29,471 nt of DNA from the IMG/VR virus record IMGVR_UViG_3300027881_000054, positions 1 to 29,471 of that record; one strand, 5' to 3'. The stretch comes from a virus. Under the pieces are notes generated by a model, which was not told the DNA's origin, did not search any database, and was given only the letters and a program-made list of their open reading frames with translations. Below are positions 8,812 to 28,468 of the stretch, piece by piece; position 1 is the stretch's first letter, and every line of letters begins with the position of its first letter. The translations under genes were made by a program, and so were the position numbers.

Positions 8812-8846
8812 TTCAGCACACTTGTTGTGCCATATAGGAGAACGAA

Positions 8847-9326: not shown

Positions 9327-9378
9327 GATAGTGGATCCACCGGGCCCAGTAGAGAACGCAAGAGTCGAGATTACAACG

Positions 9379-11288: not shown

Positions 11289-11306
11289 ATCGGAGAAGTC
11301 TATAAT
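11277..11306 (+). promoter_or_regulatory. Possible promoter with consensus -10
   Basis: A perfect TATAAT lies at 11301-11306, just after the stop of the fibre gene and about 37 bases before the start of the GNAT-like gene, in one of the few non-coding gaps. The -35 candidate (TTTATC at 11277-11282, 18-base spacing) is poor. A chance match in a short gap cannot be excluded. Confidence 0.3.
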
Positions 11307-11342
11307 GCGAGACCATCGGAGTAGGAGCTAACGGAGGCCGGC

Positions 11343-11882
11343 ATGAAGAAAGTAAAAATTCGCAGGGCAACACCCTGGGATGTGATTAAGATAGCCCATT
11401 TACTGAAACGTGCGGCTAAGGAGCAAGCGGAAGACATCTGGTATTCGACGCTGAGCGTCAACGAAACGAAGCAGATCTTCCACATTTTGACTCTCATCGA
11501 TAGAGGCTTTGTCGTTATCGCTGAGGTTCAGGATCAGAAACAGATCGTTGCAGCGATGGGAATGTCCATCGGCAGGGATGATTGGAGCGACGACTGGGTA
11601 ATGCAGAACGATTGGACATACGTTCTGAAAACTTGGAGAGACACGGACGTTGCCGACCAGCTTATGAAAGCGGTCGAGGCATTTGCGGATAAAAGTGGAA
11701 ATCCGGCGACAGGGAAAGGGTTGCCAATCATTATAGGAATGATGACTGGCCGCGATACCGACTTGAAAGATAAGTTGATGGAGCGGAAAGGCTACCAATA
11801 TGGTGGTGGTAACTTTGTGAGGGCACCGAGCGATGTCCAAGAAATCGAAAGAAAGCAAGACGGAGATTCCGGCGTGGCTTGA
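11343..11882 (+). CDS. GNAT-fold acetyltransferase-like protein
   Basis: A 179-residue protein with a strong GGAGG ribosome-binding site at 11333-11337. The GNAT pattern is visible: an N-terminal KIRRATPWDVIKIAHLLKRAA (residues 5-25), a central FVVIAEV strand (56-62), a helix after the acetyl-CoA-binding loop region (DVADQLMKAVEAFADKSGN, 102-120), a beta-5 strand (LPIIIGMM) and a C-terminal MERKGYQYGGGNFVR (146-160). The normal R/Q-x-x-G-x-G/A loop is degenerate (WRDTDVAD), so catalysis is uncertain. GNAT-like genes next to internal virion proteins occur in several podovirus-type genomes. It overlaps the next gene by 50 bases. Confidence 0.7.
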   Translation: MKKVKIRRATPWDVIKIAHLLKRAAKEQAEDIWYSTLSVNETKQIFHILTLIDRGFVVIAEVQDQKQIVAAMGMSIGRDDWSDDWVMQNDWTYVLKTWRDTDVADQLMKAVEAFADKSGNPATGKGLPIIIGMMTGRDTDLKDKLMERKGYQYGGGNFVRAPSDVQEIERKQDGDSGVA

Positions 11883-12903
11883 GTCAGGCAGCCAAAAGGC
11901 TGTAGGCATAGCCGAAGGAATTGCAGATCGGCCTTACACTCCATACGAGGCCCAGCGGTTTGCGGAGCTGGATCCGAATGAGCAGAAAGCCATTGAGATG
12001 GCTGCGACTGAAGGTGGAGCATATCGCCAGGACTTAGACCGTTCACGAGAGTTTGCCGAAACGGCAGGCCAGTCATTCCTCGACGCCGACATCCAGGCGT
12101 ATATGAATCCGTACATCGAGAGCGCACTTGAGCCAGCGGCTCGTGAGCTTCGTGAAGAAGGGCTACGTACCCAGCAAAGATTACGTGGCCAAGCCGGCAT
12201 GGCAGAGGCATTCGGTGGATCCAGAGCTGCGATCCTGGAATCCGAAGCCAGTGGCAGGCACCTGGAAACCATCAACGATTTGTATGAGCGTGGATATGCT
12301 TCGGCATACGAGTCCGCGGCTAATATGTTCGACAAGGATCGTGTGGCGGCTCGTGCTGCTTCAGATCAGTTCAGAGCGATCGGATCCGAAGGACAGCAGA
12401 TGCTCTCCAACGAGATGAACAATCTCCTGGTGACAGGTGGATTGCGCCGAAACCTGGAGCAGGTCGGCCTCGACTTTGATTACGGACAGTTCCTGGAAGC
12501 CAGGGACTGGGACGTGACCAACCTGGAACCTTTACTTAGAACATTGTCAACCGTGCCGCACGGAACGACCACTACCGAGACGACCAAAGGTGGTGAGTTC
12601 CAGGCAGTCCTGGGTGCAGCGGCGACAGTCGGCGCGGCTTACTTCAGCGGTGGCCTGAGTACGATGCTGACGAAAGGAGAGGAAGACCCGGCATCTGACA
12701 TCAGATTGAAAGATAACGTCGAGTTGATTGGTAAGCGTGGAAAATTCAACTGGTACAAGTGGACCTGGAATGATTTAGCGAAGGCTATTGGTGCCGACAA
12801 ATATCCGTCTGAAGGTGTGATGGCAAACGAAGTAATGAAGACCAGGCCAGATCTTGTGGGCCTGAGAGATGGTTATTTAACTGTCTCCTACGAGGGGATA
12901 TAG
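11833..12903 (+). CDS. Internal virion protein with C-terminal S74-type chaperone motif
   Basis: A 356-residue protein. The N-terminal part (about 10-210) has the PAWLESGSQKAV...IADRPYTPYEAQRFAELDPNEQKA opening and long helices (DLYERGYASAYESAANMF) seen in phage internal or ejection-type proteins. A hydrophobic Ala/Gly-rich segment lies at about 258-277 (VLGAAATVGAAYFSGGL). From S288 the sequence SDIRLKDNVELIG, then a YKWTWND strand, EGVMANEVMKTRPDLV and a terminal YLTVSYEGI match the intramolecular chaperone (peptidase S74) family. The Ser-Lys pair used for self-cleavage corresponds to S288 and K293. If active, cleavage just before S288 would free about 69 residues. It starts inside the GNAT gene, and its stop is one base before the next start. 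Confidence 0.65.
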   Translation: MSKKSKESKTEIPAWLESGSQKAVGIAEGIADRPYTPYEAQRFAELDPNEQKAIEMAATEGGAYRQDLDRSREFAETAGQSFLDADIQAYMNPYIESALEPAARELREEGLRTQQRLRGQAGMAEAFGGSRAAILESEASGRHLETINDLYERGYASAYESAANMFDKDRVAARAASDQFRAIGSEGQQMLSNEMNNLLVTGGLRRNLEQVGLDFDYGQFLEARDWDVTNLEPLLRTLSTVPHGTTTTETTKGGEFQAVLGAAATVGAAYFSGGLSTMLTKGEEDPASDIRLKDNVELIGKRGKFNWYKWTWNDLAKAIGADKYPSEGVMANEVMKTRPDLVGLRDGYLTVSYEGI

Positions 12904-12904
12904 C

Positions 12905-14164
12905 ATGGGCAGAATGCTTGAAGAATATCTTGCGAATAACGTCCCTCAATTACAGGACATCGTTAGTGGCAAACCTCAACCTGGTGGTGCGACGACCTTT
13001 CCGTTGCCTCAAGACCAGCCGATGCCGATGCAGCCAATCGGCCCAGGTGGACAGCCGACCGCACCAATGGGTGCAATGCCTCCGCCTGGTGCGGTAAGCC
13101 CGGCAGCCGCGGCAACACCAACTTTCAACACACCACAGACTGGAGCGCCGAAGCCAGCAATGCCTCCGGTAGATGCTCAGCCCCAGGAAGACAAGAGTGC
13201 TGAGTTTGAGGATGGCCCGAATAGCTTCGCCGCAATGGCTAAAGAAGCGCCCGAAGAAGATAAGGAAAAAGCTGTCAAGGTCATGGAAGACCAGGGTGTC
13301 GATATTGAGGCTGAGCATGCCAAGATCGTTGGAGACACCGGAGAAGGAAAGGGCAAGGGATTAAGCAAGCAGGAGAAGGCACTGATCCTAATGGAGTTTG
13401 GCCTGAATCTGATGGCCTCGTCCGGTACAGGTCAGGGCACCTGGGCCAGCGACATCGGCCAGGCTGGTGGAGCTGCGCTTGCAGGTCACATGGGACGTAA
13501 GACAGCGAAGCAGAAACAGCTCATCGAGGCAGAAGACAGGAAGCTCGAACGACAACTGAAGCAAGCGAAGATTGATAAGGCTACGCGGCCAGAGACATCG
13601 ATCGAGACGGACAACGCCGGCAACATGATCATCGTCGATCAGCAGAGTGGTAAATCAAAGCCAGTGCTGATGGATGGTAAGCCGGTGACAGCCGGCGACC
13701 AGGACAAGCTCGACTTCGAGGTCAAGCGGGAAGCATTCAAGGCGGCTTACGGATCTGAGATAAAGAATCCAGAGGAGCTGGAGCGCAGAGCTGTGGCTTT
13801 CGCAAACAGTGTTCGCCAGGTGGCTTTCCCGAAATTGGCTCGACAGGACCAGGCCAAGGCCATCATCAAAGAGCTGAACGAGGGCAAGAACGCCAGCCAG
13901 AAATTCATTGTCAACGGCGAGGAAAAACGCTGGAAGAACATGACTTACGCCGAGAAGACCAAGACCGCTACGCAGATGGTCGATATGGCTATGGCTGCGG
14001 CGGAAGGTGGCGTCACCAGCTCAGATGGTGCCGGTGCGAACTTTGGTCTCAATGACGAACAGGTCCAGGGCCTGGAGCCGAACACGAAGTACAAGCTCTC
14101 GAATGATACCTGGGTAGCCAAGCGCAACGGTAAGCTCGTAGAAGTCGATCCTCCGGCACAGTAA
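12905..14164 (+). CDS. Putative internal/ejection virion protein, Pro-rich N-terminus
   Basis: A 419-residue protein. Residues about 22-95 are Pro/Gly/Gln-rich and probably disordered. An acidic segment follows (EEDKEKAVKVMEDQGVDIEAEH). Residues about 150-200 carry an amphipathic Gly/Ala-rich stretch, LMEFGLNLMASSGTGQGTWASDIGQAGG, of a kind seen in phage ejection proteins, followed by a basic helix (MGRKTAKQKQLIEAEDRKLERQLKQAK). The second half is mixed with no known domain. The stop overlaps the ATG of the giant gene (TAATG). The position, directly before the giant polyvalent gene, supports packaging inside the capsid or delivery with it. No enzymatic motif is seen. Confidence 0.55.
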   Translation: MGRMLEEYLANNVPQLQDIVSGKPQPGGATTFPLPQDQPMPMQPIGPGGQPTAPMGAMPPPGAVSPAAAATPTFNTPQTGAPKPAMPPVDAQPQEDKSAEFEDGPNSFAAMAKEAPEEDKEKAVKVMEDQGVDIEAEHAKIVGDTGEGKGKGLSKQEKALILMEFGLNLMASSGTGQGTWASDIGQAGGAALAGHMGRKTAKQKQLIEAEDRKLERQLKQAKIDKATRPETSIETDNAGNMIIVDQQSGKSKPVLMDGKPVTAGDQDKLDFEVKREAFKAAYGSEIKNPEELERRAVAFANSVRQVAFPKLARQDQAKAIIKELNEGKNASQKFIVNGEEKRWKNMTYAEKTKTATQMVDMAMAAAEGGVTSSDGAGANFGLNDEQVQGLEPNTKYKLSNDTWVAKRNGKLVEVDPPAQ

Positions 14165-17100
14165 TGGCTGTCGAGATCCTGGAATCAGTCAAGGACGACG
14201 AGGTTGAGGAAGAACAGGAGCTGACCACAGGGACAATCACACCTGCCCCTGTCACGCTGAGCGGCGAGACTGCGCCTGATCACTACACCTTCGCATCACC
14301 GATCAAGGTCGGAGAGCCAGAAGAACCTGGATTCTTCAGCGGTGCCTTTGATGCGTTCGATGAGTGGCGAGATAAGAAGCGAGCGGAGGTCGTGCCATTC
14401 ACTCGTGATGAAGCGCGAGAAATAACCAAAGAGAATATCAAGCTCAACCGTGAGGTGATGGGCAACAAGGGCTTCGGCCAGTTCCAGTTTGGCGACAGCA
14501 GGGCACCGTCTCATTCATCCCTGGTTCGCGCCGGCCTTGAAGATCCACCGGAGGAAGAAGGCGAAGCCGCATTACTGCCTTATCTGCGTGATGATCCGGC
14601 CACGGTATCGCGGCCCAGGCTCGGACCAGAGCAGTCACGTATCGCCAGGGAGCAGGCGAAGTGGAAAACCTACCCGAAGGATCCTGCCGGATTCCTGATT
14701 GATCCAAGCAGGCCGCTCATCATGAGCGAGAGCGGTCAGACGCAATCCGAGGTCAGCAGGACGTTCGAGGCAGGTGGTCGCTACTACAACATCCCAAGCA
14801 TCGTAAATGGCGAGCAGGTCGATGACGAGCGAGCGATCGAGAATGCCAAGTCGATGATGAAGAAAGGCTGGATCTATCCCAGCTTTGACAGCCAGGAAGA
14901 AGCGATCGAGCAGGCCAAGGCCAGATCTGATTCGATCATGGATGCCAGGGCTGAGTGGCGTCAGCAAGATCTACCTGAGACCGAAGACGAGTGGGAAGAA
15001 TATATCGGCAAGACTCAGCCGAAGGATGAGATCGAGGAAGATCCCTGGGGCCTGGTGATCTGGGATCATGCGACCAATACGCCGGCTATGTTCAAGCGCC
15101 AGTACGGTGGTGCGAAAGCCTTCCTCAACGCACCACGAGATCTCGTTTACATCATCGAGGCAGCAGCCGATCAAGGTGTTGCACCAGAGGATAGCTTTGC
15201 CCTTGAAGCGGAGGCTTACGTAAGGGGCAAGGATCCTGCGGTGTACTACCAGGAGCTGCTGGATGGACTGGAGGAGAACGAGGACTTCCAGGAAGGCATG
15301 CGACTGCACCGGGAGGCCAGCTCGTATCTGCGAAACTATCAGCCGAACGTCGAAGAAGGCAGCCTCAAGTATTACACCGGAGCGATCCTGGAGGGCACGA
15401 TCAACATGGCTCCAGCCCTGATTGCGAGCGCAGTCACCAGGAGTCCCACGGTCGGTGCCGCTCTCATGGGCGGACAGGTATTCGCAGATCAATATGCGGA
15501 GTCGATCGAGGCCGGCAGATCTCACAGCCAGGCAGTCACCGATGGCACCATATTCGCAGCCGCGGAGATCCTGACAGAGCGCATACCGCTCGGAATCCTG
15601 ACCAAGGAAGGTGGAAGCCTACTCAAACGAGTTCTCAAGTCTGGAGGCGCTGAGGCTATCCAGGAGCCGATTACGCAGCTCATCCAGGAAGGCTACACGA
15701 TGGGAGTCATCAATGAGGAGATGACCCTGGGTGAGGCCCTGATCGAGCTGACGACGACTGAAGAAGGTCTCAAGATGCTGGGCCGCTCCGCCATCATCGG
15801 ATTCGGTGTTGGTGGCACCCTGGCAGCTTCGATGCACCCATTCTATGGCGGCATGACTGCTGAAGATGTGCCTGAGCCACCGGACCTCAAGAAGGCGAAG
15901 ACCAGTCTGCCATCTGAAAAGATCGAGGAGATCTCAGAGGAGGAGGCTGAGGAGTTTGGCCTGTCGAAGGTCGAGGTTAGTTTGGATCTCCTGGAGCGTG
16001 TTGCTGCCGGCGATCCGTTGACGATCGACGAACAGTACACTCTCACCAGCGAGGGCTACGGTCGCTTCATCAACGATGGCGAGCGTGTGGTCATGGATCC
16101 AAAGGGCATGCAGGCCCTGAAGAAACTACGTGATGGTTTTAGCCTGGAAGACGAAGCAGCCAGGGACAGTGTTCCTCGCAGGAGCGTTCGGCCTTCTGAG
16201 GAGCGCATCCAGGAAATCATGGCTGCCTATGAAAGCGTCAAGACAGCTAATCCAACAGCTATGTCCAGGATGGGCCCAGAGCTAAAGAGCCGGGTCGATA
16301 CCCAGTGGCAACAGCTCAACCAGGAAGCCAGGGACAGCATGGTGATGATCTTCGAGGAAATGGAGACCCTTGCCGAAGATGATAACCAGATCGATGTGCT
16401 GAAGAATCGAGTCGAAGTTCTTCTGGAACAGGTCGGCAAAGCAATCGAGGGTGAGCCACCGGAAGAACCAGTATTCCCTGAGTCCAAGGTTAAAAACACT
16501 GCTTTTCATGGGACGAATGTCCCGGTTGTCTTGGAGCCAGGCGTCATGCACTTTTCTGCTGATGTCGAGTTTTCCAAGAAGTGGGGAACCAAGGAGCTGG
16601 TTGAAGCAGAGATCAATATCGAGAATCCGGATTACTGGGATGACGCAGGCCGGCATCACGAAATCCTGGATGAGCCGGAAGAAATAGAACGGCTCAAGAG
16701 CGAAGGCTACGATGGCGTCATTATTCGCAATCGCATTGAAGGCTTGCCTGACAATTACGTGGTGTTCAATGCCGCGGAACAGGTGTCGATCAAAGAGCCG
16801 GCAGAGGTAATACCGGAAGGCACCATCACCGATGAAGAAGGCGAGCCTGTCATCGTGTGGCGTGGCGAACATGGTCTGCGCGAGGACCAGGATGAGGAGT
16901 TCCAGACCAGGGTAGGTTCGTTGTCATTTGGCAGCCTGAAGACCGCTACGGTCTATGCGAAGGATCCGAACGACCGGGTGAAGGACAAGGTAGCCAAGGA
17001 TCCTCGTGTCCAGGGTTACACGATCGCGATCAACAATCCGTTCGTCAATTCAAAGGACGATCCATTCGTTGATGTGAGTGAGATCCGCAGGAAGCTGGGG

Positions 17101-20100
17101 CCATCAGCGGTGAATCATGTCGTTAAGAACCTGGGCGACCGGATCATGAACACCAACAACTGGGAGGAGAATTTCGCAGAGGAGTTCGATAGCCCAGCCG
17201 ATGTCCTGGCGAAAGCGCCAGAGCGTGTCGATAAGCTATACCTTGATCTGTACGCAGTCCTCGATGATGCGGAGATGGTCAAGCGCATGAAGCGCAAGGG
17301 CTACGATGGTGCGATTCACCAGGGCATGGGAGAGAACTTTGATGAGATCGAGTACCGAATTTTCGATCCAGCTCAGGCCACACGTATTCCAACAGTCAGC
17401 GTTGTCCAGGAAACGCTCGAAGAAAAACGTCCTGAAGTCATCGACAGGTGGGCCCAGGATAGCGTCGAGGAGCAGAGACGCCGGCTGGACTTCGCTGCAC
17501 ACGAGGCCGAGACCTCTCAGTACGACACCAGGGAACAGAGTGATGAGCTTCTAAAGGCTGGCACCTACGAGAAGGGGCATATTCGATTCCATGGATTGCC
17601 GATCACGATCGAGAATCCAAGGGGCTCAACCAGGCGCGGGAAAGATGATACGACTGGTCGCAAGTGGAAGTCAGTCTTGGCGCATCACTATGGTTACATC
17701 AAGGGCATCCAAGGCAAAGATAAAGATCAGCTTGATGTCTTCATCGGGCCGAATACTCAGTCGCAGCAGATCTACATCGTCAACCAAAAGGAGAACAACG
17801 ACGCAACGCTGAGTGAAGCTAACTTCGACGAACACAAGGTCATGCTGGGCTTCGATTCACAGACAGAAGCGATGGCTGGTTACGAGGCAAATTATCCGAA
17901 GGGCTGGAAGGGCATTGGCAGCATGTCCGTGATGACGATGCCGCAATTCAAGGACTGGATCGGCACTCCGTACACGCAGGTCATTGCACCGGAAACACGA
18001 GTAAGAACGAAAGAAATGCGTCCGGAAGATGTCATTGAAATACTGCATGGTCGTTACATGATTTCGTCGATGAAATACACCAGGCAGAAAGATGAAGACG
18101 AGGAGCCACGTAAGAAGCAGCACGTCGAACCGGAAGGCGAGTACATGAAGCAGGAGTCATGGGACGACCAGCTCGGCACTTTCCTGGGTAGAGAAAGACC
18201 AGGAGTTCGAGCCGGCACCGTTCGATTCCATAAGCCATACGTCATTCCGTTCAACTCGAAGGGTGCGAATGTTGAGAATCCCTATGACCAGAATCACTGG
18301 ACGACTGTACTCAGCAATCATTATGACGGACTGACAGGTGAGGCTCTTACCATGGAGCTTCAGGAAGAAGGATTCGATGGTGTTGTTGCGGTCAACATCA
18401 ACGCCAAGAGCGAACCATTCGAGATCGTAGAGATGGTGTCCTTCAAGCTGCGAGATGCCATGGAAGCAGACTGGGAGATGACACCGCTGGACGTGAAGGA
18501 AGGTGGAGTCAGTTACCAGATAAACGAAGCCACGATGAATTTCGATGCCGGCGTCAACGCCAGCGTCTCGTCTACCCAGGCATGGCTACCTGGTAAAGCT
18601 CACTGGGAGTTCACCAGCCCGAACGTCAGGATGGTCGAGACTGGCACATTCAAGTCTGGAAAGAAAAGGATCACCGGCACTGGCAAGGAGGCCGCATTAC
18701 AGGTTGCTCATGTTGTTGCACCACTGAGGCGTGAGGCTCAGGAGAGCCTGATGCTTTTGGTCGCGGACGAGAAGGGCAACATCAAGGCAGTCATCAGACA
18801 TTCGGTCGCTAAAACTGAGTCAGCCGAAATCGAGCCAGGTATTGCTCTTGGATCTATCTTTGCAACCAGGGGAGCAAAGCGGGTCTGGATGGTGCATCAG
18901 CATCCAAGCGGCACTGCTGAGCATAGCCCCAACGACACGAAGCTGTTCACCACATTGACCGAATCCCTGGGAGGCACAGGCATTAAGGTCGAAGCATCTG
19001 TCGTCGTTACGCATGGTCAAGGAAAGGGATCCTGGTACATCCCTGAATTTGGAGATCAAAGCGAGACAATCGATATTCCGCCATTGGCCAGGACACAAGA
19101 TGTTCCGATAGTGGAGCGACGATTCCGCAAGTACGGAAAGCCCAGCAAGAACGCGATCTCCGATCCAATGGCTTTTGAGGATCTGGCAAAGACAGTCCCG
19201 GAAGGCGAACACATCATCCTGCTGAACACGCAGCATCAGGTTGTTGGCATCGTGCCAATTCAGAACATGAAGACGTTGCGAACGAAGAATGTCGGCACCG
19301 GAGCTGGCGCGGTTTATCGAGCAGTAGCGCAGACCAATGCGAATCGTTTGATGGCTGTCGCTAACGACATGGATTCAGCGATCAACGCGATGACGTTCGG
19401 GGAGCAGTCAGGTATCGGAATGTACGATGTTGCCATCCGTAAGGCAGATGGAACATTTGTCACGATGAGCGACACCAATCAATTCAATGATCGCAATCAT
19501 AAGTACAGGCACAAGAGGCCCACCACGAACATGGGCCGGGGTGTTTCTGTCGAGAAGGTCCAGGAGGTTCTTCGTCCGATCTATCGTATGTTCCGCACCG
19601 TGCCTCCGGTACGTGTTGTGGAATCAATCGAGGATCTGCCAAAGCATCTCCAGGCATCCATGGAAACTGACGAGGACCGCAGGAACACGACTGGCATTTA
19701 CGACCAGGGCGGCTTCCTGGATACGGTCTACATCATTGCCAACAACGTCACTAATACCGAGGAAGCGATCGAGACCATGCTGCATGAGGTCATCGGTCAC
19801 TTTGGCATACACCAGGTTCTGGATCCATGGGACTTCAATACAATCATGGACCAGGTATCCGAGTCCTTCGAGAAAGAAGTTCGTGCCATTGCAAAGACTT
19901 ACGACCTGGACTGGAACAATATCGATGAGCGGAGAATCGCGTCTGAAGAATACATGGCCCACACCGCTCAGCGTGTCCTGGCCGGCAGGAAGGTAAGCAG
20001 CCAAGCCAGGAAGCTCCTCGATGCGCTCGTCAAAGCCTTCAAGAATTTCTGGTTGAAGTTGAGGGGCAAGCCGACCTTGCTTACTGATGGGCAGATTCAT

Positions 20101-23100
20101 TCCCTGATCGCCCAGGCCAGCACCTACGTTCAGACCCCAGGTGGTTACGTTCGCGACAAGCAGCGAGGCCGACGACGCTACCTCCATGCGCCGGCTTACT
20201 TCTCCAAGCTGTGGAATGCTTTCAACGATTCAGACATGAAGTCAGGATCGGCTGGATCCTGGAAGCAATTTATCCAGGGTCAAATTAAGAAAGGCGGATT
20301 CAAGGATGTGGAGGCCAGGTGGCTGAGGTTTACGGTTGAAACAGATGAGAAGGGCAAGCCCGTTGATCCGGAGGACACGACCTGGTTCGATGAGGTTACC
20401 TGGAATGACATCTATCAGTTGTCCACATCAAGACAGTGGTCAAGCCCGGCTGTCGAGGATCAATTACCGCAGCTTGAGAAGTTCCTGCCTGGAGACGTGA
20501 TTGAGAAAATAATTGAGCATCGTAAATTGGGACGCGAACTCAAGGCCCAGCAAGAGAAGGGCAAGGCTCTCATGGAAGAAGCGTTCATTGATGAGATGCC
20601 GGAAGTCCACAAGACGATCACCGAGGGATACAACGCCGTTGCTAATGATGTCAGGAGGGACTGGTATGAAAGCCATCCAGCCGAAACTTTCCTGACGCCA
20701 AACGAGCAGCGTGATCACGCAGCCATGAATGAGCGGTGGGAGGAGTTGAGTAATGACCTGGAGACCTTCGGTCGCACCCAGCCGAAGAAGATTCCGAAAG
20801 ATGCGGTCATGTCGTACATCGAACGCAATGGCGTCGAGATCTCAATCCAAAACCCAGAGAGCGGAAGTGACGAAGACTCGCCGTACTTTGAGTCTGAGGA
20901 TTACCCCGATCACAAAGAAGAACCTGATGAAGACCAGTGGATGGATCGCTGGCAGGAGGTTGAAGAAGCCAACTGGGGAGATTATTGGGGCACCGCTCTG
21001 AGTGAAGTTCACGGTGATCATGGCTGGGATTCGGATATACAGGTTGATGATCTCGACGCCGATGAACTTGGTATCCCACAAGAAGACATCGACAACATGG
21101 ATGTCGAGGAGTTGAACCAGGCTAAAGGCGACTGGGATGGCACTGACGCTGACGACATGGAGGACGAAGCTCGCGAGAAAACGCAGGAAGCCATCGAGGG
21201 TGATTACTACCAGGAGGAGCGTGACGACTGGCTGTCGAAGAACACCAAGAGGGAATGGTACTCAGGCGACTTCCACATCTACACCGACAGCGATGGCGAC
21301 TTCATGGTGTACCACGATGGCTCTGAGTTGGGATATGAGTCCACCTTCGATGCTGCTGTGGAGCTGGCCGAGAATCACTATCAAGAATCAGGGTCAAACA
21401 CTCGATGGACTAGCTATATGCTGGATCCAAAGGGCGAAGAATACGAGGAATGGCTGTTCCGCTGGAGGAATCCTGACGAATCAATCTTCCAGGAGACAAG
21501 CCACTGGGGCGAGGAAGACGACAACTACGTTGCACATTCCAGATTTGATATTCGCAAGGACAAGAATGGCAAGCCTGCCTTCTACGTCGATGAGATGCAG
21601 TCTGACTGGGCCCAGGAAATTCGTGATGTCATCAAGAACAAGCTCCCAGATATTTACGAGGAACATGGTTTCGATCCTGACTATATAAATCCTGATGGCA
21701 CTGTCGGTGGTGGCGAGGACTGGGATGGCACTCCAAAAAACGACATGCTTGAGGAGGCCAGGAAGGCTGCCGGCGCAGATCCGGAACGGGCCAAGAAGTT
21801 CGCAAAAGAAGCGGAAGCACTCTACGACAATCTGAAAGCGCATAAGTCGAGAATCGTTGCAGAATTAAAACAGGTCCAGCCTTCGGTAGATAAAGAGTTC
21901 ATTGATGTAATGGGACAACTGGTCCAGGACGCTTATGCCTCGGATGCGAGAGAGTTCCTTAACAGGGTCAAGTCTGACGCGGAAAGAATGGAGAGCAAGG
22001 TAAAGGATCGCCTTGCCAAGCGGACCATGGATGTTGCTGCCAAAGAGTTTGAGAGGCACGGACTTTATTGGGGCCTGAATCGTACCGAGAACCTGTTGTT
22101 CAACGCTTATCGCAGAGAGGTCAGGACGCTTCCGCCGATCATGGAGGGAGTGCCTTATCGAAGCAGTCTGTTGATGGGCTCCGCTCATGATGACTTCCAG
22201 GTCAGGGTCATCGATAGGGCCAAGTCAGAATACGGGCTTACTGATGAGGAGTTGAATGAACTCGATACCAGGGTGGCTCTCCGTGACTACGAGAAGATGT
22301 TTGAAACGTCGAGGGACGATGTTGACGGTTTGACCTGGCAACAGGCTATCTCCAAAGCAGGGCTGGCTACGGCTCTTGATTGGGGAACGCACCCGAAGGA
22401 TATGACCGACTATGATGCCTCGGTTAGCTTCAAAGAGGTCGGAGAGGTGGCCCAGGATGCAGCCTGGACGAAGCTGCTAGATCCGGACGAGGCTCGCAGT
22501 GAAAAAGAGCTGCACGAAAATACGCTGGTTCACGAGAACAACCACTGGGAAGACGCCTGGAGGGGAGTATTAAAAGCCAATGCTGATCAAGCTGTTGGAG
22601 CAGAAAACTATGGGACCGATGCCATCTTCAGGGTGTGGGTGCCGATGGTTGATGCGATGCAGAAGATGTCGAAGGCCCTGAAGAACGAAAAGGCGGAGAT
22701 AAGCAGAAAGGGAGTCAAGCCGTTTGAGTATGAGGTGGACACTAAATTCCGTCGCGATATTCAAACTCTCACCCTGGATTTTAACGAAGCCAGGAACAAG
22801 TCCAGTCGAGCCAAGGAGGGAATGGTCTTCCCACCGTTTGAGAAGGACTGGCAGCTCCTGGTACTCAAGGGAATGATTCACGAAGCCATGCGTCGTGGCC
22901 ACGATCGTATCTATCTCTCCAGGGGCGAGGTACATGGTGTTCGTTGGAGTGGAGCCCAGACAGTCGAATCTGTGGTATGGGATCGGGAGGAAATTACCGG
23001 CGAAGATGACAGGACGATCGATATGTTCACTGGCAAAGCTGGTGAGAAAAAACCGACTGCTGTTGTCTATCACCTGACGTATCCGGATGCTGGTCGAACC

Positions 23101-26100
23101 GACAAGGTGCCAGCCAATGCTTTGCGTAAGACGGTGGGTGATCGCGTTGCCAGCGTGATCATGAAGTCCAAGGCGCAGGCCGGAACTGTTAATGCTGAAG
23201 ACGTTGATTTGCAGTCGATCCTGGTTCCAACAACCAGCGGAGGTAAGCGGCTCACAGGATCTCGCAAGATCTACAACGAGCTGATGCCGAACAACGCCAA
23301 CAAGTTCCTGAAGGGATTCAAAGCAAAGATGCAGATGGGCTGGGTGCCTGGTCCAGGAAAGCCCAGTGAAGCGACGGATCCTGAGCGATCTGGCCTGGCT
23401 GTCAAGAGAGGACCATCTGAAGCGTATGACAACTGGGCAAAGGCGAAGGTGCGACCGCTCACCGACAAGGAGCTGGAAGACACTCCGTTCGTTGGTGAGG
23501 AAGGAGCAGCGGCTGTTGAGAAGGCGAAGCGTGAAGTAGCGAAGCGATGGTTGCCTGATTACACCGAGGTAGAGGCGGAACGTCTCCAGGAAAAGGGAGA
23601 GCGATCACCGATTCCTCAGTGGGATGGTGTGGTCTGGGGTATCGAGCTTGGTGATGGGAAGATCGCCACGGTTGCCGGCGCGTACCGTCCATGGGAAGCC
23701 GACACCTGGGGCTATCTGGAAGAACAACGCAAGATGATGCTTGAAGCAACGTGGGGTTACGAAGCCTGGGAGATTGAGTTCACGCCGGAACTCAAGGCAG
23801 CAATGCAAACTGGATTCCCGCTATTCCATAAGCGTGGCGGCAAGAAGCGCACTGGAGATCCTGGGCTCGACGACGCACTGAACTGGGCTGAGAAGAACAT
23901 CGGGCCCCAGGGTCCGCGGTCACTGGAGATCTTGCAGGAGAGGATCAACCAGGTGCTTCGCATGGAGAACAAGCAGGCCAAGATGGAACAGGCCATGCTC
24001 GATCAGTTCGCCGGCCTGAAGTGGGCCATCCGACAGACTCATGGTCATGACCTGCCGGCCCAGGTATCGGCATACAAGCAGGCTCATTTCACGACTAGCC
24101 AGGACTCTCAGATGTACGTCTTCCTGACCCACGGTATTCCGGTCTGGGAGGAGGTTACTGCTGAGGGCCACACTGGCACGATCACGCAGATCAAGCCTGG
24201 CTCGAAAGGTCTCCTGGAGATCATGGAGCCGGTCGCTGACAAGATCCAATTCTGGGGCTACTGGATGGCCGCCAGGAGAGCCGATCGCCTGCTGAAGGAG
24301 GGCAGGGAGGCCCTGTTCACCCAGGAGCGTGTGGACGAGCTGCTGAAGCTGGGTGAGAGATTCCCTGAGTTCCAGGATGTGGCTGACGCATACAACGACT
24401 GGAAGACGCAATTCCTGGACTGGGCCGAAGGTGCCGGAGTAATCAACTCCGAGACCAGGCCGCTGTGGGACCAGGCTGACTACGTGCCGTTCTACAGAAT
24501 CAAGGCTGACGAGATGGGCGGATCGTTCGCCAAGCGTTCAGGCATGGGCGGACCAGGAATTGCGAACGTCACGCAGCCGATCAAGAGGCTACTGGGATCG
24601 AAGCATCCTTTGGGAGACATCCTGGAAAACATCATCGTCAACTTCCAGAACATTGCAAACACGGCGATGAAGAACAAGGCAGCTCAACTAGCGATCGAGA
24701 ACATGGAAGGCTCAGGTCTGATTGTCCCGATCTCTGGTAAGGAGTGGATGAAGCAGGAATTCATCCCGCTCGATGAGCTGAAGCGAAAGCTGAAGCAGGC
24801 CGGCATTGACTGGGAGGCAATGGATCCAGAAGCCCTGTCCGCGATGCAGAAAATGTGGACGCTCCAGAGACCGGAGGGTGAGGATGTCATCTCGGTTCTG
24901 TTCGATGGGAAGAAGAAATACTTCAGGGTCAAGGAGGAGACCCTGCTGAGATCGCTGACTGCGATCAACGAGAAGAAATTTGCGAGCTTGCTTGGCCGCA
25001 TGGGAATGTGGCTACCGCGAAAGATTAAGCGCCTCGGCACCACGATGATAACTCTCGCACCAGATTTCATGGCGGCGAACTGGTTCCGGGATTTGTTCAT
25101 GGCGTTTACCAACTCACGACATGCGAAGATGCCCAAGCCGTGGTCCGGTGCAACCGGAGCGTGGAAGGCATTTACGAAGTCACCTGAGATGGTGTCCATG
25201 ATGGCTGCCGGTGGCGCTTTTTATTCTGGCTACATCAATGCCAACGATCCGGTATCAACGGTCAAGGCAATGAAGCGAGCCCTGCGTCAGACAGGATTCA
25301 AGAACCGGATCCTCGACGCACCATGGAAGCTGTTCCACCTGTACAACGACATCGGTGCAGCATCCGAGAACGCCAACCGTATCGGCTCCGCATACGTCCC
25401 GGCCATCAAGGCTGGAGTCGGTAAGGCTGAAGCAGTGTGGGAGTCCAAAGACCTGATGAACTTTGCCAAGCATGGCGACCATGTGATGGTGCAGTTCTTC
25501 GCTCAGTCGGTGATGTTCCTCAACGCCAGGGTCCAGGGTCTCACCAGGTACGGGCAGCGATTCGGTGAGGCACCTGGTATCACGTTTGCCAAGTCGATGA
25601 TGTATGCCATGGCTGTCCTGGCGATCTGGCTGAGGAACAAAGACGAGGACTGGTACAAGGCGCTGCCTGAAGAAGAAAAGGATATGTACGTCCATGTGAT
25701 GGTCAACGGCAAGCACTGGCGTCTGCCGAAGGCATTCGAGGTCGGCATGATCTTCGGGGTCGGTATTGAACGGATGTTCGAGTATTTCTACTCGAATGAG
25801 AATGACGCCGGCAAGGTAGCGATCGATCGCTTGTGGTTCGTCATAGGCGAGGTGTTCAACTTCTTCAATCGGCAGACCCTGGTGCCGTTGCCACAGTTCA
25901 TCCAGCCATTGTTCGAGGCGAGTAACAACTACAACGCTTTCTTCCAGGCACCGATCGTGCCGGAGTACATGGTGGAGATCGCTGAGGTGAAGCCTGAGCT
26001 GGCGTTCAGGGCCAGCACCAGCCCGGCCATGCGCGAGCTGGCCAAGGCAATGCCAGGTTTCGCACCTGACACGCTCCAGAATCCGCTGCTCCTGGAACAC

Positions 26101-26763
26101 CTGGTCCGAGGTTACTTTGGCACCCTTGGCGCATACACCATGGTCATGACTGATGGCCTGGTCAGGAATGCGTTTGATTACCCAGCCAGGCCGGCACTTC
26201 GCTGGAGCCAGCATCCGGTGATAGGTCGCTTCTATCGTGGCGAGGATCCGCCATCTCGTACCAATTTCGAGGAGATCATGTACGAGGTGAGGAACAATGC
26301 CAGGGCGATCGATCGAGCTGTGAGCCAGATGGAGCGCCTGGAGATGGACGATGAGATCGATGAGTTCATGGAGGCTGGCTCGAAGTACGATCCGAGCTTC
26401 AGCAACCAGGAAGTCGTCGATGCAGCCGCGGCCATGGAGGGAAGCTACGAACAGATCAAGCAGCTTCGCAAGGAGACTACGGAGCTGTGGGAAGACGAGA
26501 AGATGACTCCTGAGCAGAAGCTGAAGGAGTTGAACCGGATCTATCGCGAGAAGATGGAGAACGCCAAGGATGCCTACGGTGAGCGACCAGGTGCAACGAT
26601 TCAGTTCGAGGCGCTTCAGGAAACGCTCATCGACATGGACCCGGAGAATAGACCAAGTTACCTGGCAGAGCAGGGCCTGGATCAGACAGCAGATCTTATC
26701 GCCGGCCTGCCGAAGAAGCCTGAGCTGAGGCTGCGAAACATTTACTGGGAGAACTCAGCATGA
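14164..26763 (+). CDS. Giant polyvalent virion protein (4199 residues, about 470 kDa)
   Basis: One uninterrupted reading frame. Modules in order, with rough residues: acidic N-terminus 1-60; small alpha/beta module 199-255 (YNIPSIVNG); hydrophobic helical region 402-560, a candidate membrane-penetrating part; helical linker 560-775; ADP-ribosyltransferase-like modules 780-878 (FHGT, GYDGVI) and 887-1079 (WRGEHG, GYDGAI); pyrophosphatase-like 1120-1265 (YGYI; D1186, D1188, D1191); a third transferase-like fragment 1352-1434 (GFDGVV); RadC/JAMM module 1500-1640 (E1527, H1578, H1580, S1588, D1591); a degenerate JAB-like stretch about 1660-1760; zincin metallopeptidase about 1810-1970 (H1874, E1875, H1878, E1929); conserved phage region about 2030-3220 with EMQSDW at 2477-2482; helical LPD38-like region about 3600-4010 around FMAANWFRD; charged coiled-coil tail. 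The series matches the polyvalent proteins of Iyer and colleagues (2017). Similarly sized single virion proteins occur in Bcep22-like podophages. Injection with the DNA is inferred. Confidence 0.85.
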   Translation: MAVEILESVKDDEVEEEQELTTGTITPAPVTLSGETAPDHYTFASPIKVGEPEEPGFFSGAFDAFDEWRDKKRAEVVPFTRDEAREITKENIKLNREVMGNKGFGQFQFGDSRAPSHSSLVRAGLEDPPEEEGEAALLPYLRDDPATVSRPRLGPEQSRIAREQAKWKTYPKDPAGFLIDPSRPLIMSESGQTQSEVSRTFEAGGRYYNIPSIVNGEQVDDERAIENAKSMMKKGWIYPSFDSQEEAIEQAKARSDSIMDARAEWRQQDLPETEDEWEEYIGKTQPKDEIEEDPWGLVIWDHATNTPAMFKRQYGGAKAFLNAPRDLVYIIEAAADQGVAPEDSFALEAEAYVRGKDPAVYYQELLDGLEENEDFQEGMRLHREASSYLRNYQPNVEEGSLKYYTGAILEGTINMAPALIASAVTRSPTVGAALMGGQVFADQYAESIEAGRSHSQAVTDGTIFAAAEILTERIPLGILTKEGGSLLKRVLKSGGAEAIQEPITQLIQEGYTMGVINEEMTLGEALIELTTTEEGLKMLGRSAIIGFGVGGTLAASMHPFYGGMTAEDVPEPPDLKKAKTSLPSEKIEEISEEEAEEFGLSKVEVSLDLLERVAAGDPLTIDEQYTLTSEGYGRFINDGERVVMDPKGMQALKKLRDGFSLEDEAARDSVPRRSVRPSEERIQEIMAAYESVKTANPTAMSRMGPELKSRVDTQWQQLNQEARDSMVMIFEEMETLAEDDNQIDVLKNRVEVLLEQVGKAIEGEPPEEPVFPESKVKNTAFHGTNVPVVLEPGVMHFSADVEFSKKWGTKELVEAEINIENPDYWDDAGRHHEILDEPEEIERLKSEGYDGVIIRNRIEGLPDNYVVFNAAEQVSIKEPAEVIPEGTITDEEGEPVIVWRGEHGLREDQDEEFQTRVGSLSFGSLKTATVYAKDPNDRVKDKVAKDPRVQGYTIAINNPFVNSKDDPFVDVSEIRRKLGPSAVNHVVKNLGDRIMNTNNWEENFAEEFDSPADVLAKAPERVDKLYLDLYAVLDDAEMVKRMKRKGYDGAIHQGMGENFDEIEYRIFDPAQATRIPTVSVVQETLEEKRPEVIDRWAQDSVEEQRRRLDFAAHEAETSQYDTREQSDELLKAGTYEKGHIRFHGLPITIENPRGSTRRGKDDTTGRKWKSVLAHHYGYIKGIQGKDKDQLDVFIGPNTQSQQIYIVNQKENNDATLSEANFDEHKVMLGFDSQTEAMAGYEANYPKGWKGIGSMSVMTMPQFKDWIGTPYTQVIAPETRVRTKEMRPEDVIEILHGRYMISSMKYTRQKDEDEEPRKKQHVEPEGEYMKQESWDDQLGTFLGRERPGVRAGTVRFHKPYVIPFNSKGANVENPYDQNHWTTVLSNHYDGLTGEALTMELQEEGFDGVVAVNINAKSEPFEIVEMVSFKLRDAMEADWEMTPLDVKEGGVSYQINEATMNFDAGVNASVSSTQAWLPGKAHWEFTSPNVRMVETGTFKSGKKRITGTGKEAALQVAHVVAPLRREAQESLMLLVADEKGNIKAVIRHSVAKTESAEIEPGIALGSIFATRGAKRVWMVHQHPSGTAEHSPNDTKLFTTLTESLGGTGIKVEASVVVTHGQGKGSWYIPEFGDQSETIDIPPLARTQDVPIVERRFRKYGKPSKNAISDPMAFEDLAKTVPEGEHIILLNTQHQVVGIVPIQNMKTLRTKNVGTGAGAVYRAVAQTNANRLMAVANDMDSAINAMTFGEQSGIGMYDVAIRKADGTFVTMSDTNQFNDRNHKYRHKRPTTNMGRGVSVEKVQEVLRPIYRMFRTVPPVRVVESIEDLPKHLQASMETDEDRRNTTGIYDQGGFLDTVYIIANNVTNTEEAIETMLHEVIGHFGIHQVLDPWDFNTIMDQVSESFEKEVRAIAKTYDLDWNNIDERRIASEEYMAHTAQRVLAGRKVSSQARKLLDALVKAFKNFWLKLRGKPTLLTDGQIHSLIAQASTYVQTPGGYVRDKQRGRRRYLHAPAYFSKLWNAFNDSDMKSGSAGSWKQFIQGQIKKGGFKDVEARWLRFTVETDEKGKPVDPEDTTWFDEVTWNDIYQLSTSRQWSSPAVEDQLPQLEKFLPGDVIEKIIEHRKLGRELKAQQEKGKALMEEAFIDEMPEVHKTITEGYNAVANDVRRDWYESHPAETFLTPNEQRDHAAMNERWEELSNDLETFGRTQPKKIPKDAVMSYIERNGVEISIQNPESGSDEDSPYFESEDYPDHKEEPDEDQWMDRWQEVEEANWGDYWGTALSEVHGDHGWDSDIQVDDLDADELGIPQEDIDNMDVEELNQAKGDWDGTDADDMEDEAREKTQEAIEGDYYQEERDDWLSKNTKREWYSGDFHIYTDSDGDFMVYHDGSELGYESTFDAAVELAENHYQESGSNTRWTSYMLDPKGEEYEEWLFRWRNPDESIFQETSHWGEEDDNYVAHSRFDIRKDKNGKPAFYVDEMQSDWAQEIRDVIKNKLPDIYEEHGFDPDYINPDGTVGGGEDWDGTPKNDMLEEARKAAGADPERAKKFAKEAEALYDNLKAHKSRIVAELKQVQPSVDKEFIDVMGQLVQDAYASDAREFLNRVKSDAERMESKVKDRLAKRTMDVAAKEFERHGLYWGLNRTENLLFNAYRREVRTLPPIMEGVPYRSSLLMGSAHDDFQVRVIDRAKSEYGLTDEELNELDTRVALRDYEKMFETSRDDVDGLTWQQAISKAGLATALDWGTHPKDMTDYDASVSFKEVGEVAQDAAWTKLLDPDEARSEKELHENTLVHENNHWEDAWRGVLKANADQAVGAENYGTDAIFRVWVPMVDAMQKMSKALKNEKAEISRKGVKPFEYEVDTKFRRDIQTLTLDFNEARNKSSRAKEGMVFPPFEKDWQLLVLKGMIHEAMRRGHDRIYLSRGEVHGVRWSGAQTVESVVWDREEITGEDDRTIDMFTGKAGEKKPTAVVYHLTYPDAGRTDKVPANALRKTVGDRVASVIMKSKAQAGTVNAEDVDLQSILVPTTSGGKRLTGSRKIYNELMPNNANKFLKGFKAKMQMGWVPGPGKPSEATDPERSGLAVKRGPSEAYDNWAKAKVRPLTDKELEDTPFVGEEGAAAVEKAKREVAKRWLPDYTEVEAERLQEKGERSPIPQWDGVVWGIELGDGKIATVAGAYRPWEADTWGYLEEQRKMMLEATWGYEAWEIEFTPELKAAMQTGFPLFHKRGGKKRTGDPGLDDALNWAEKNIGPQGPRSLEILQERINQVLRMENKQAKMEQAMLDQFAGLKWAIRQTHGHDLPAQVSAYKQAHFTTSQDSQMYVFLTHGIPVWEEVTAEGHTGTITQIKPGSKGLLEIMEPVADKIQFWGYWMAARRADRLLKEGREALFTQERVDELLKLGERFPEFQDVADAYNDWKTQFLDWAEGAGVINSETRPLWDQADYVPFYRIKADEMGGSFAKRSGMGGPGIANVTQPIKRLLGSKHPLGDILENIIVNFQNIANTAMKNKAAQLAIENMEGSGLIVPISGKEWMKQEFIPLDELKRKLKQAGIDWEAMDPEALSAMQKMWTLQRPEGEDVISVLFDGKKKYFRVKEETLLRSLTAINEKKFASLLGRMGMWLPRKIKRLGTTMITLAPDFMAANWFRDLFMAFTNSRHAKMPKPWSGATGAWKAFTKSPEMVSMMAAGGAFYSGYINANDPVSTVKAMKRALRQTGFKNRILDAPWKLFHLYNDIGAASENANRIGSAYVPAIKAGVGKAEAVWESKDLMNFAKHGDHVMVQFFAQSVMFLNARVQGLTRYGQRFGEAPGITFAKSMMYAMAVLAIWLRNKDEDWYKALPEEEKDMYVHVMVNGKHWRLPKAFEVGMIFGVGIERMFEYFYSNENDAGKVAIDRLWFVIGEVFNFFNRQTLVPLPQFIQPLFEASNNYNAFFQAPIVPEYMVEIAEVKPELAFRASTSPAMRELAKAMPGFAPDTLQNPLLLEHLVRGYFGTLGAYTMVMTDGLVRNAFDYPARPALRWSQHPVIGRFYRGEDPPSRTNFEEIMYEVRNNARAIDRAVSQMERLEMDDEIDEFMEAGSKYDPSFSNQEVVDAAAAMEGSYEQIKQLRKETTELWEDEKMTPEQKLKELNRIYREKMENAKDAYGERPGATIQFEALQETLIDMDPENRPSYLAEQGLDQTADLIAGLPKKPELRLRNIYWENSA

Positions 26764-27230
26764 GCGAATTACTTGCACGACGCATATCATCCGGATCGGA
26801 GGCTACGCTGAGTACGCTGCATGAGCTGGATGATGCTGGCAAACCTGAGTTCATTTGCTACGTCCTGGAAGATCAGTTCAATGAACCGAAGATCCCTGGA
26901 GAGACCAGGATTCCACCAGGTAGATACCAGATCGAGCTGCGCGACGAAGGTGGCATGACGAAAAGGTACAAGGAGCGATTCCCGGATATTCATAAGGGAA
27001 TGCTGTGGCTCCAGGACGTGCCTAACTTCACGTTTGTTTACATCCACACCGGCAACACTGATGACCACTCTGAAGGGTGTCTCCTGGTTGGCGATGCACA
27101 GCATCAGAACGTGACTGAGCGCGGCCAGGTAACCAGTTCGGTTGCGGCCTATCGAAGGCTGTATCAGAGAATCATCTTCGACCTGGACCTGGGCGATGAA
27201 GTGTGGCTCACAGTGGAGGATTACGCATGA
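26760..27230 (+). CDS. DUF5675-type wall-active protein, endolysin candidate
   Basis: A 156-residue protein. The order of motifs is that of DUF5675: FICYVLEDQ (31-39), IPGETRIPPGRY (45-56), a GMLWLQDVPNF strand (80-90), then VYIHTGNTDDHSEGC (93-107) and a serine-rich AAYRRLY helix. The H96-x-G98-N99...S104-x-G106-C107 arrangement resembles an L,D-transpeptidase-like active site, with C107 the candidate nucleophile and H96 its partner. There is no signal peptide, so it would depend on a holin. It is the first gene after the giant gene and the first of the lysis cassette. No lysozyme, amidase or transglycosylase motif is found elsewhere in the window, which makes it the leading endolysin candidate; activity is unproven. 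Confidence 0.6.
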   Translation: MSELLARRISSGSEATLSTLHELDDAGKPEFICYVLEDQFNEPKIPGETRIPPGRYQIELRDEGGMTKRYKERFPDIHKGMLWLQDVPNFTFVYIHTGNTDDHSEGCLLVGDAQHQNVTERGQVTSSVAAYRRLYQRIIFDLDLGDEVWLTVEDYA

Positions 27231-27415
27231 ACGGAAAATATCACGGCAGACGATTCGCCAGCTTGATACTCGCATTCGCATGTCTTTGTGGTGGATATTT
27301 TGCTGGCGAGCCGGAGTCATTCGGCGCGTTTTCAACGGCAGTCACGGTTTTGTATGGCGCATATTTAACTGGTCAATCAGCGACTGATTGGCAGAAATCT
27401 AAAAACGGGGGCTAA
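27227..27415 (+). CDS. Small two-helix membrane protein, holin candidate
   Basis: The start at ATG 27227 overlaps the previous stop (ATGA), giving 62 residues. Two hydrophobic helices are seen: about 10-26 (FASLILAFACLCGGYFAG) and about 33-48 (GAFSTAVTVLYGAYLTG). They are joined by a short acidic loop, with a basic N-terminus and a polar, basic C-terminal tail (QKSKNGG). That is the build of a small class II holin. It lies between the wall-enzyme candidate and the spanins, as holins do in compact lysis cassettes. No conserved holin signature is decisive for such small proteins. Confidence 0.6.
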   Translation: MNGKYHGRRFASLILAFACLCGGYFAGEPESFGAFSTAVTVLYGAYLTGQSATDWQKSKNGG

Positions 27416-27416
27416 C

Positions 27417-27836
27417 ATGGCCATGAAACCTATCAAACTTGAATCTCTCAAGGAGATGAAGTTCACCGTTCCTGTGACCTTGCTCATCGGTTTGTTCGTC
27501 ATTGGCTGGCAGGCCAAGGACTTCACGATCGATGGGCTGGATGCGTTCTTCATCAGTGAAGTCGAGGGTGCTGAGATAACTGATCAACTCACAAAGATCA
27601 GCGACAGCCTGGACAGTTACATCTCGAAGTCCGAAATTCGCGAGATCAATCATCAGATCCAGGAGATAAACTCACAGGTCACCGAGACGCAGTTATATAT
27701 CGCGGCGAATGGCAATAATGATATTGCAACCGCGAGACTGCAAGATTTGGTGGCGAGACGTGATGCTCTCCGCGAAACGAAAGATTGTCTCCTCGATGAC
27801 AACATCGTGGAGAAGGAGCTTTGCTATGTTGAGTAA
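27417..27836 (+). CDS. Membrane-anchored coiled-coil protein of the lysis cassette
   Basis: A 139-residue protein with one N-terminal membrane segment (about 17-32, TVPVTLLIGLFVIGWQ) and a long, probably periplasmic, region. Residues about 52-90 form a coiled coil (ITDQLTKISDSLDSYI, REINHQIQEINSQVTETQLY). Two cysteines near the end (about 123 and 136) could form a disulfide. The topology resembles an i-spanin, but the next gene fits that role better. This may be a pinholin-like, antiholin-like or accessory lysis protein. Its stop overlaps the next start by 11 bases, so the two are co-translated. Confidence 0.6.
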   Translation: MAMKPIKLESLKEMKFTVPVTLLIGLFVIGWQAKDFTIDGLDAFFISEVEGAEITDQLTKISDSLDSYISKSEIREINHQIQEINSQVTETQLYIAANGNNDIATARLQDLVARRDALRETKDCLLDDNIVEKELCYVE

Positions 27837-28281
27837 GCCCCTAATGATCGCGACCGGCATCCTGGCCGTGATCTGTCTTTTGCTGTGGCGACAGAATAGC
27901 AATCTGAACGAAGAAGTTGGTAAGGCGAAAGCCGCTGTCGCTCAGGCCGCACAGACAAACTCGAACAACCTCACAACGATTTCAGACCTGGGTGATCGGC
28001 TTGATAGATGCGTAGCCGATCGCCTGGTAGACGAGGCAGCGAATGTCGCTGTGGTATCAGAATTGAAAGCGGACATCCTGGAGCTGGAAGAAGAAGGTTT
28101 CGAGATCAGGATTGAGACAGAGGAGATCTTCCGTGACCCATCGTGTGAGGAACTTGGCAATATCGATGTTACTGCTGCCTGCCCTGCTCTCGCTGCAAGC
28201 ATGCGAGACAGCGCCGACAGTCTTAACAGAAGTGGAGATCCGGGAAGTGCCAGTTCCGGTGAGGACTCCACTCCCAGATGA
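27826..28281 (+). CDS. Rz: Inner-membrane spanin (Rz-like)
   Basis: ATG 27826 is used, with an AAGGAG ribosome-binding site at 27813-27818 and seven bases spacing, giving 151 residues. The N-terminus is a membrane anchor (about 6-20, LMIATGILAVICLLL). The periplasmic part is a coiled coil (VGKAKAAVAQAAQTNSNN, then VVSELKADILELEEEGFEI). The C-terminal C-[EH]-x-[LMI]...[17 protein letters not shown] layout is that of Rz proteins. The second half of the gene contains the start of the outer-membrane partner in the +1 frame, the classical overlapping spanin arrangement. Spanins join inner and outer membranes to disrupt the outer membrane in the last step of Gram-negative lysis. Confidence 0.8.
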   Translation: MLSKPLMIATGILAVICLLLWRQNSNLNEEVGKAKAAVAQAAQTNSNNLTTISDLGDRLDRCVADRLVDEAANVAVVSELKADILELEEEGFEIRIETEEIFRDPSCEELGNIDVTAACPALAASMRDSADSLNRSGDPGSASSGEDSTPR

Positions 28282-28468
28282 TTGTTTTGCACAGCACAGC
28301 GTAAGCCAGTCAGCAGATCTACCTGCTGAAGGTTCGCTTACCGTGAAGGAGTATGTGGACTGGGCGAATGCCCTGGTCGTCGTTACTCGTCGCTATCGGG
28401 CTCAGACTGATCGGTGCGGGGCTCTGAACCAGGGGCCCGATCCAGAAGCTCCGATCGAAGAACCTTAA
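28133..28468 (+). CDS. Rz1: Outer-membrane lipoprotein spanin (Rz1-like)
   Basis: I chose GTG 28133, with an AGGAG sequence about eight bases upstream and no ATG near. A TTG at 28112 would add seven residues. The 111-residue product starts with a signal sequence (basic THRVR, then [13 protein letters not shown]) ending in the lipobox LQAC, with C24 the lipidated residue. The mature part of 88 residues is Pro-rich ([10 protein letters not shown]) and ends acidic. Its first 149 bases lie in the +1 frame inside Rz, and the stop shares a TTAA with the stop of a reverse-strand gene. The last 86 bases are antisense to the 3' end of csrA. Confidence 0.8.

Follow-up and report, generated by a model that had tools for sequence, protein, structure and literature searches.

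A cysteine-free phage protein of 4199 residues with a constant C-terminal core: a probable cargo carrier ejected with the genome

Introduction

It is puzzling how proteins of half a megadalton pass through a phage tail of 3-4 nm and then through the bacterial envelope. The protein described here comes from the IMG/VR virus record IMGVR_UViG_3300027881_000054, whose full 29,471 bases are called the window. A single open reading frame (ORF; 14164..26763, on the plus strand like all window features given below) encodes a polyvalent protein of 4199 amino acids (aa) with a calculated mass of 475 kDa and not one cysteine. An earlier description made from the letters alone (the sequence-only reading) had reported this frame, about 43% of the window, and we confirmed it as one ATG-initiated ORF. 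The closest relative of this giant, encoded on an independently assembled contig of 72.8 kb (L013), is an uninterrupted frame of 3694 aa that is largely collinear with it, and therefore the giant is not an assembly artefact.

We propose that the giant probably belongs to the large internal (ejection) proteins of short-tailed phages and has turned into a cargo carrier, packaged in the virion and ejected largely unfolded. Four features were absent from the sequence-only reading, namely the zero cysteine content, an invariant core, a split domain at residues 2417-3225 and the occurrence of RadC alongside InPase and LPD38.

A constant C-terminal core with a homologue in virions

The giant was compared with 170 relatives, which were drawn from IMG/VR, from GTDB genomes and from records of phages (171 proteins with the giant itself). 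Since the search for relatives required a motif of the C-terminal core (residues 3267-4140, 23962..26583), the presence of this core in 170/170 relatives is partly given by construction, whereas its end position and the variable rest of the proteins are not. In all 141 complete relatives the core stands last, followed by a median of 5 and at most 59 residues, and it is preceded by an N-terminal extension of 179-3301 residues. The relatives cover the giant almost universally at about 3260-4100 and sparsely elsewhere, except for the InPase domain (present in 59/170 relatives) and the zincin (137/170). A comparison of domain order, proposed as a check by the sequence-only reading, placed the zincin N-terminal to the core in 123/123 cases. 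A minimal relative, a protein of 1254 aa from pelagiphage Lederberg, consists of the core plus 384 residues and ends an internal-virion-protein cassette.

The core includes LPD38 as a sub-part (PF18857, residues 3828-4020, 25645..26223; E 1e-31; 110.5 bits against a gathering score of 27). The AlphaFold model of residues 3259-4199, calculated with 85 sequences, reached a pLDDT of 87 and a pTM of 0.84 and is nearly all helical. Foldseek detected no match of the core to PDB folds (best E 1.2), and a sequence search with the core gave nothing credible. Among BFVD models 63 matches were found at E<=0.001; most of the named ones are phage proteins that are large and polyvalent or carry LPD38, and one match comes from Ralstonia phage Alix.

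About 770 residues of gp69 of Burkholderia phage JC1 align to the core by hhalign (99.9%, E 3e-32), and gp69 also has LPD38. Mass spectrometry of virions purified on CsCl yielded 51 unique peptides of this protein (PMC9144972). Delivery with the genome, which the sequence-only reading had suggested, is thus supported by way of a homologue of most of the core that is present in virions, together with a cysteine exclusion matching that of known ejection proteins.

Alternatively it might be that the giant is not packaged and that the infected cell produces it as an effector against host defence or for the lysis stage. It stands immediately before the lysis region, and the virion proteomics come from the phage of the homologue rather than from the window phage. 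However, JC1 gp69, which has most of the core, does occur in virions, and within the structural operon the gene of the giant lies downstream of a homologue of ejection proteins, so that we regard an unpackaged protein as highly improbable.

Exclusion of cysteine from the giant and from ejection proteins

About 31 cysteines would be expected in the giant from the other window genes (0.73%), but 0/4199 residues are cysteine. Read in frames +1 and +2, its DNA contains 124 and 154 cysteine codons, respectively. The 170 relatives together have 42 cysteines in 454,480 aa, and 145 of them have none; after trimming of likely start overcalls, 23 cysteines are left and 159 relatives are free of them. 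Even before trimming, this applies to 43 of the 53 representatives at 50% identity. The other ORFs of at least 200 aa in the relatives' loci contain 0.96% cysteine. Sorted by gene position, the value is 0.85% at -3, 0.51% at -2 and 0.18% at -1, and 1.1-1.8% downstream of the giant. The three genes upstream of the giant in the window (11343-14164) are cysteine-free, too. In the giant of L082 three cysteines are clustered at residues 1571-1581, perhaps as a metal site, while the rest of the chain has none.

Among proteins whose ejection or internal location is known or annotated, no cysteine is found in SU10 gp20-24, which were shown to leave the virion (PMC9509320), in P22 gp7/16/20, N4 gp50-52, T7 gp15/16, phiKMV gp35-37, P-SSP7 gp15/16 and JC1 gp64/67/68/69. 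The absence of cysteine, being common to most known podophage ejection proteins, therefore suggests delivery of the giant with the phage DNA. In the JC1 operon an acetyltransferase and a PAPS reductase contain 3 and 4 cysteines, respectively; neither appears in the list of virion proteins. The contractile-tail phage P1 delivers DarB, which has 9 cysteines. Unlike DarB, the P1 tail-length protein Sit (L271, 40988-44410, 1140 aa) is cysteine-free, and the rule may extend to tape-measure proteins.

It might also be that cysteine is lacking for a reason other than transit, e.g. by disulfide avoidance in extracellular virions or because long structural phage proteins are poor in cysteine. These phages do have some further cysteine-free proteins, and epsilon15 gp14-17 contain 1-2 cysteines each and are thus depleted rather than cysteine-free. 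In these phages, however, cysteine is retained by most of the portal, capsid, nozzle and spike proteins, although the N4 capsid protein has none, and 0/13 non-giant ORFs of at least 700 aa in representative loci are cysteine-free. The InPase domain, which is also carried by a solved phage portal, holds cysteine in a tabernarius head protein and in several short ORFs, yet in 0/25 core-bearing ORFs; a lack of cysteine intrinsic to the domain was rejected on these grounds. We therefore consider a cause unrelated to transit unlikely.

That the N4-type polymerase lacks cysteine has already been published, together with the likely reason (PMC3915230, PMC3715699). Our literature search found no paper stating cysteine exclusion for ejection proteins generally, which is no proof of novelty. 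Near-total exclusion of cysteine may well be a general transit signature of podophage-ejected proteins, to which whole cassettes and every recruited cargo enzyme are subject.

Several observations weigh against an ejected giant or against the cysteine rule. The delivery of the giant itself we infer from virion data that belong to JC1 gp69. By hhalign, kinship of the core with T7 gp16, the C-terminal domain of N4 gp50 and SU10 gp24 had a probability of at most 1% and was rejected. The 1395-aa core protein of L003/L004 contains 6 cysteines, as the sole clear exception among the 170 relatives. T7 gp14 and the gp14-like protein of P-SSP7 have one cysteine each, and the depleted epsilon15 proteins belong here, too. 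The L013 contig encodes a cysteine-free ORF of 1035 aa upstream of the ejection cassette (rotated 8243-11350); because other such proteins exist, absence of cysteine alone is no proof of ejection. Finally, the homologue of the giant in Bacillus phage Pascal is also cysteine-free, so the Gram-negative periplasm is not the sole reason for the lack. This suggests that unfolded passage itself selects against cysteine.

In the mechanism we propose, the core would place the giant in the head and take it out via the tail. The N-terminal part would be exchangeable cargo (ART-like, pyrophosphatase, RadC/JAMM and an unnamed domain), with the zincin before the core. The giant would exit the virion largely unfolded or extended, pass the envelope with partner ejection proteins and refold in the host, where the zincin may release the cargo from the core by cleavage. 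A self-processing role has been proposed for polyvalent zincins (PMC5512222). A thiol would be a liability in unfolded transit through an oxidising space, and for this reason cysteine would have been removed from the entire chain. The beads-on-a-string architecture proposed in an N4 preprint for the passage of such chains (PMC12633501) fits the modular anatomy of the giant.

Enzyme-like modules and exchange of cargo

The InPase domain (PF18823, residues 1131-1266, 17554..17961; Pfam E 7e-47) keeps its D-x-D-xx-D metal site. The RadC/JAB domain (residues 1513-1618, 18700..19017; HQHPSG...SPND) contains the JAMM motif H-x-H-P-x(n)-S-x-x-D, HQHPSGTAEHSPND, and the Pfam RadC match (residues 1516-1618, E 1.5e-9) is above the cut-off. 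The Pfam matches to InPase, RadC/JAMM and LPD38 are solid. RadC is adjoined by an unnamed partner domain (residues 1640-1756, 19081..19431), and a domain of this kind, about 115 aa long, follows RadC in the 12 RadC-bearing relatives.

Residues 1791-2013 (19534..20202) form a putative zincin-like metallopeptidase. This region had no Pfam match in a search with the whole protein, but HExxH and the downstream Glu ligand are represented by HEVIGH (1874-1879) and E1929. These ligands are near-invariant over about 195 homologous stretches (His 97-99%, catalytic Glu and E1929 96-100%), which supports the zincin assignment.

The two ART-like stretches are marginal candidates. Copy 1 (residues 775-890, 16486..16833) is marginal to ART-PolyVal, and copy 2 (residues 890-1076, 16831..17391) matches phrog_8642 with E 2e-31. 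Over residues 781-1080 the ART-PolyVal match, in two stretches, has an E of 2.5e-4 with the whole protein and of 8.6e-7 with the slice. Its score of 30.2 bits is below the cut-off of 31.2, and the catalytic triad is only partly recognisable by eye. In iterative searches, relatives of these stretches turned up in 36-48 further proteins of the compared set.

The module list of the sequence-only reading held for InPase, RadC and LPD38 by Pfam and for the zincin by its conserved HExxH...E, whereas ART is its weakest item. Its assignment to the polyvalent class was borne out, since a single chain combines several catalytic domains of unrelated kinds and the phage encodes it among its virion genes. 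A hydrophobic membrane-active part, also postulated there, was not supported: a Kyte-Doolittle scan of the giant found no canonical transmembrane helix, the mean exceeding 1.4 only in one stretch of 19 residues (3805-3823) within the LPD38 core and peaking at 1.33 in region 291-580. A mildly hydrophobic conserved N-terminal region (residues 293-568, 15040..15867) is shared with PTXU04, Vibrio 1.232.O and VvAW1. Judging from their families, InPase could clear pyrophosphate or attack nucleotide signals, roles proposed in PMC5512222, RadC could act on nucleic acid or protein, and the ART-like parts could modify host proteins.

The core of L013 is 79% identical to that of the giant. L013 has no match for the ART stretch (window residues 761-1124), and its InPase is just 41% identical while the flanking blocks reach 55-57%, indicating that cargo was exchanged and the core was not. 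RadC, InPase and LPD38 occur together in the giant and in five relatives (L013, L144, L092, L070, L062). The whole module set of the giant is unique among the 171 compared proteins, in line with the earlier suggestion of a possibly undescribed combination.

Instead of carrying effectors, the giant might be a T7 gp16-like protein of the ejection apparatus that forms or drives the channel across the envelope, its modules being degenerate or acting on the channel or on phage DNA. The position within the internal-protein cassette would agree with this, as would minimal relatives that barely exceed the core, an ART copy 1 without a clear catalytic Glu (DNYVVF) and the ART score below the Pfam cut-off. 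On the other hand, the catalytic motifs of RadC and InPase are intact and those of the zincin almost invariant, and close relatives exchange cargo, as is expected of host-directed effectors and not of machine parts. A channel protein is thus an improbable explanation. Identity as a T7 gp16-like internal virion protein was rejected with an hhalign probability of 0.6%.

Between the zincin and the core of the proposed cargo carrier, a strongly acidic region (residues 2030-2410, 20251..21393; net charge about -17 per 100 residues) is found in the closest relatives only. It is followed by an unnamed domain with the motif E-x-Q-S-D-W, which is split into a first half (residues 2417-2488, 21412..21627) and a second half (residues 2884-3225, 22813..23838) by a long insertion (residues 2489-2883, 21628..22812) shared only by L013 and, in length, by L014. 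The conserved segments of this QSDW domain are 12-93 aa apart in other giants and 348-400 aa in the window giant, L013 and L014, and the latter three therefore contain an extra insertion of about 300 aa. A single-sequence search with residues 2030-3220 found no relatives; these appeared only once the region was split, and relatives of the QSDW domain are encoded in at least 566 IMG/VR stretches. The domain has no Pfam family and occurs in PHROG only inside one large multidomain group. Its contiguous form in L087 gave a confident AlphaFold model (pLDDT 89). Against the PDB, Foldseek with this model found nothing significant (best E 0.06), and a sequence search with the domain gave no match. Of the top 50 weak Foldseek matches 21 are GNAT acetyltransferases, which is a hint only of a possible relation.

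Neighbouring genes

The giant is directly preceded by a gene of 419 aa (12905..14164) that overlaps its start by 1 base. Two genes upstream lies a 356-aa homologue of the DNA ejection protein family phrog_4287 (11833..12903, E 1e-25), and before it a GNAT-like acetyltransferase of 179 aa (phrog_1249, 11343..11882). The 3' end is overlapped by the gene of a DUF5675 protein (26760..27230), the first of the lysis region. In this region (26760-28468) the DUF5675/Tlde1-like protein is followed by a small hydrophobic holin-like frame and by an Rz-like frame with an overlapping Rz1-like lipoprotein frame (LQAC), the holin, Rz and Rz1 assignments being made by inspection. With the phrog_4287 homologue upstream and these frames downstream, the position in the ejection cassette before the lysis region agrees with the sequence-only reading. 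PADLOC detected no defence-system families. GNAT homologues in JC1, POI1126, phiKMV and epsilon15 do hold cysteine, while the window acetyltransferase does not. It may also be ejected, an argument weakened by only about 1-2 cysteines being expected in 179 aa.

Significance and comparison with known systems

The polyvalent class and LPD38 are already known. New as far as could be checked are the module set, unique among 171 proteins; the joining of RadC with InPase and LPD38 in one chain; a C-terminal core that is constant and matches no solved fold; the unnamed QSDW domain; and the exclusion of cysteine across the family and most examined podophage ejection proteins. With a core that stays fixed, cargo that can be swapped and a near absence of cysteine, the 170 giants make the passage question testable: the core is predicted to be both required for packaging and ejection and enough for them, extra cysteines to hinder transit and cargo to be exchangeable. 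In phages that lack annotation, the cysteine rule could offer an inexpensive way to predict which proteins are ejected. If cysteine exclusion is indeed a general transit signature, it would, together with an obligatory delivery core, reveal ejected effectors from sequence alone, and the chain is predicted to travel unfolded through an oxidising space.

The proven virion protein JC1 gp69 (4515 aa) and other DarB-type giants of Bcep22-like phages have a homologous LPD38-bearing core and zero cysteines, and gp69 is the final gene of its ejection cassette like the giant of the window. The cargo differs: gp69 carries SLT, an Eco57I-like methylase/SNF2 helicase and LPD3, the window giant ART-like stretches, InPase, RadC, zincin and QSDW. 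BLASTP detected no pairwise homology between the window genes upstream of the giant and JC1 gp63/gp64/gp68. A DarB antirestriction identity was rejected, as no Pfam match to the pair of adenine methylase and SF2 helicase was found in the 4199 aa.

With the phage-type LPD38 polyvalent proteins of Iyer et al. 2017 (PMC5512222) the giant shares the single multi-enzyme chain, the zincin, InPase and LPD38. That study, which makes no mention of cysteine, divides such proteins into phage and conjugative types and places RadC and InPase/LPD38 in separate classes; the fusion of RadC with InPase/LPD38 departs from this division. The ejected virion RNA polymerase gp50 of N4 is a cysteine-free giant, too, in which a large helical C-terminal domain comes after an HExxH of the zincin type, but the C-terminal domains of both proteins have no detectable similarity. 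PF21769, PF21867 and PF21894, present in gp50, are absent from the window giant, and an N4-type polymerase identity was rejected. Escherichia PTXU04 gp25, Vibrio 1.232.O gp28 and VvAW1 gp1 have both conserved blocks (291-570 and the core) and zero cysteines like the window giant. They are shorter (2197-3640 aa), carry other cargo and are annotated as hypothetical, methylase or DarB-like proteins.
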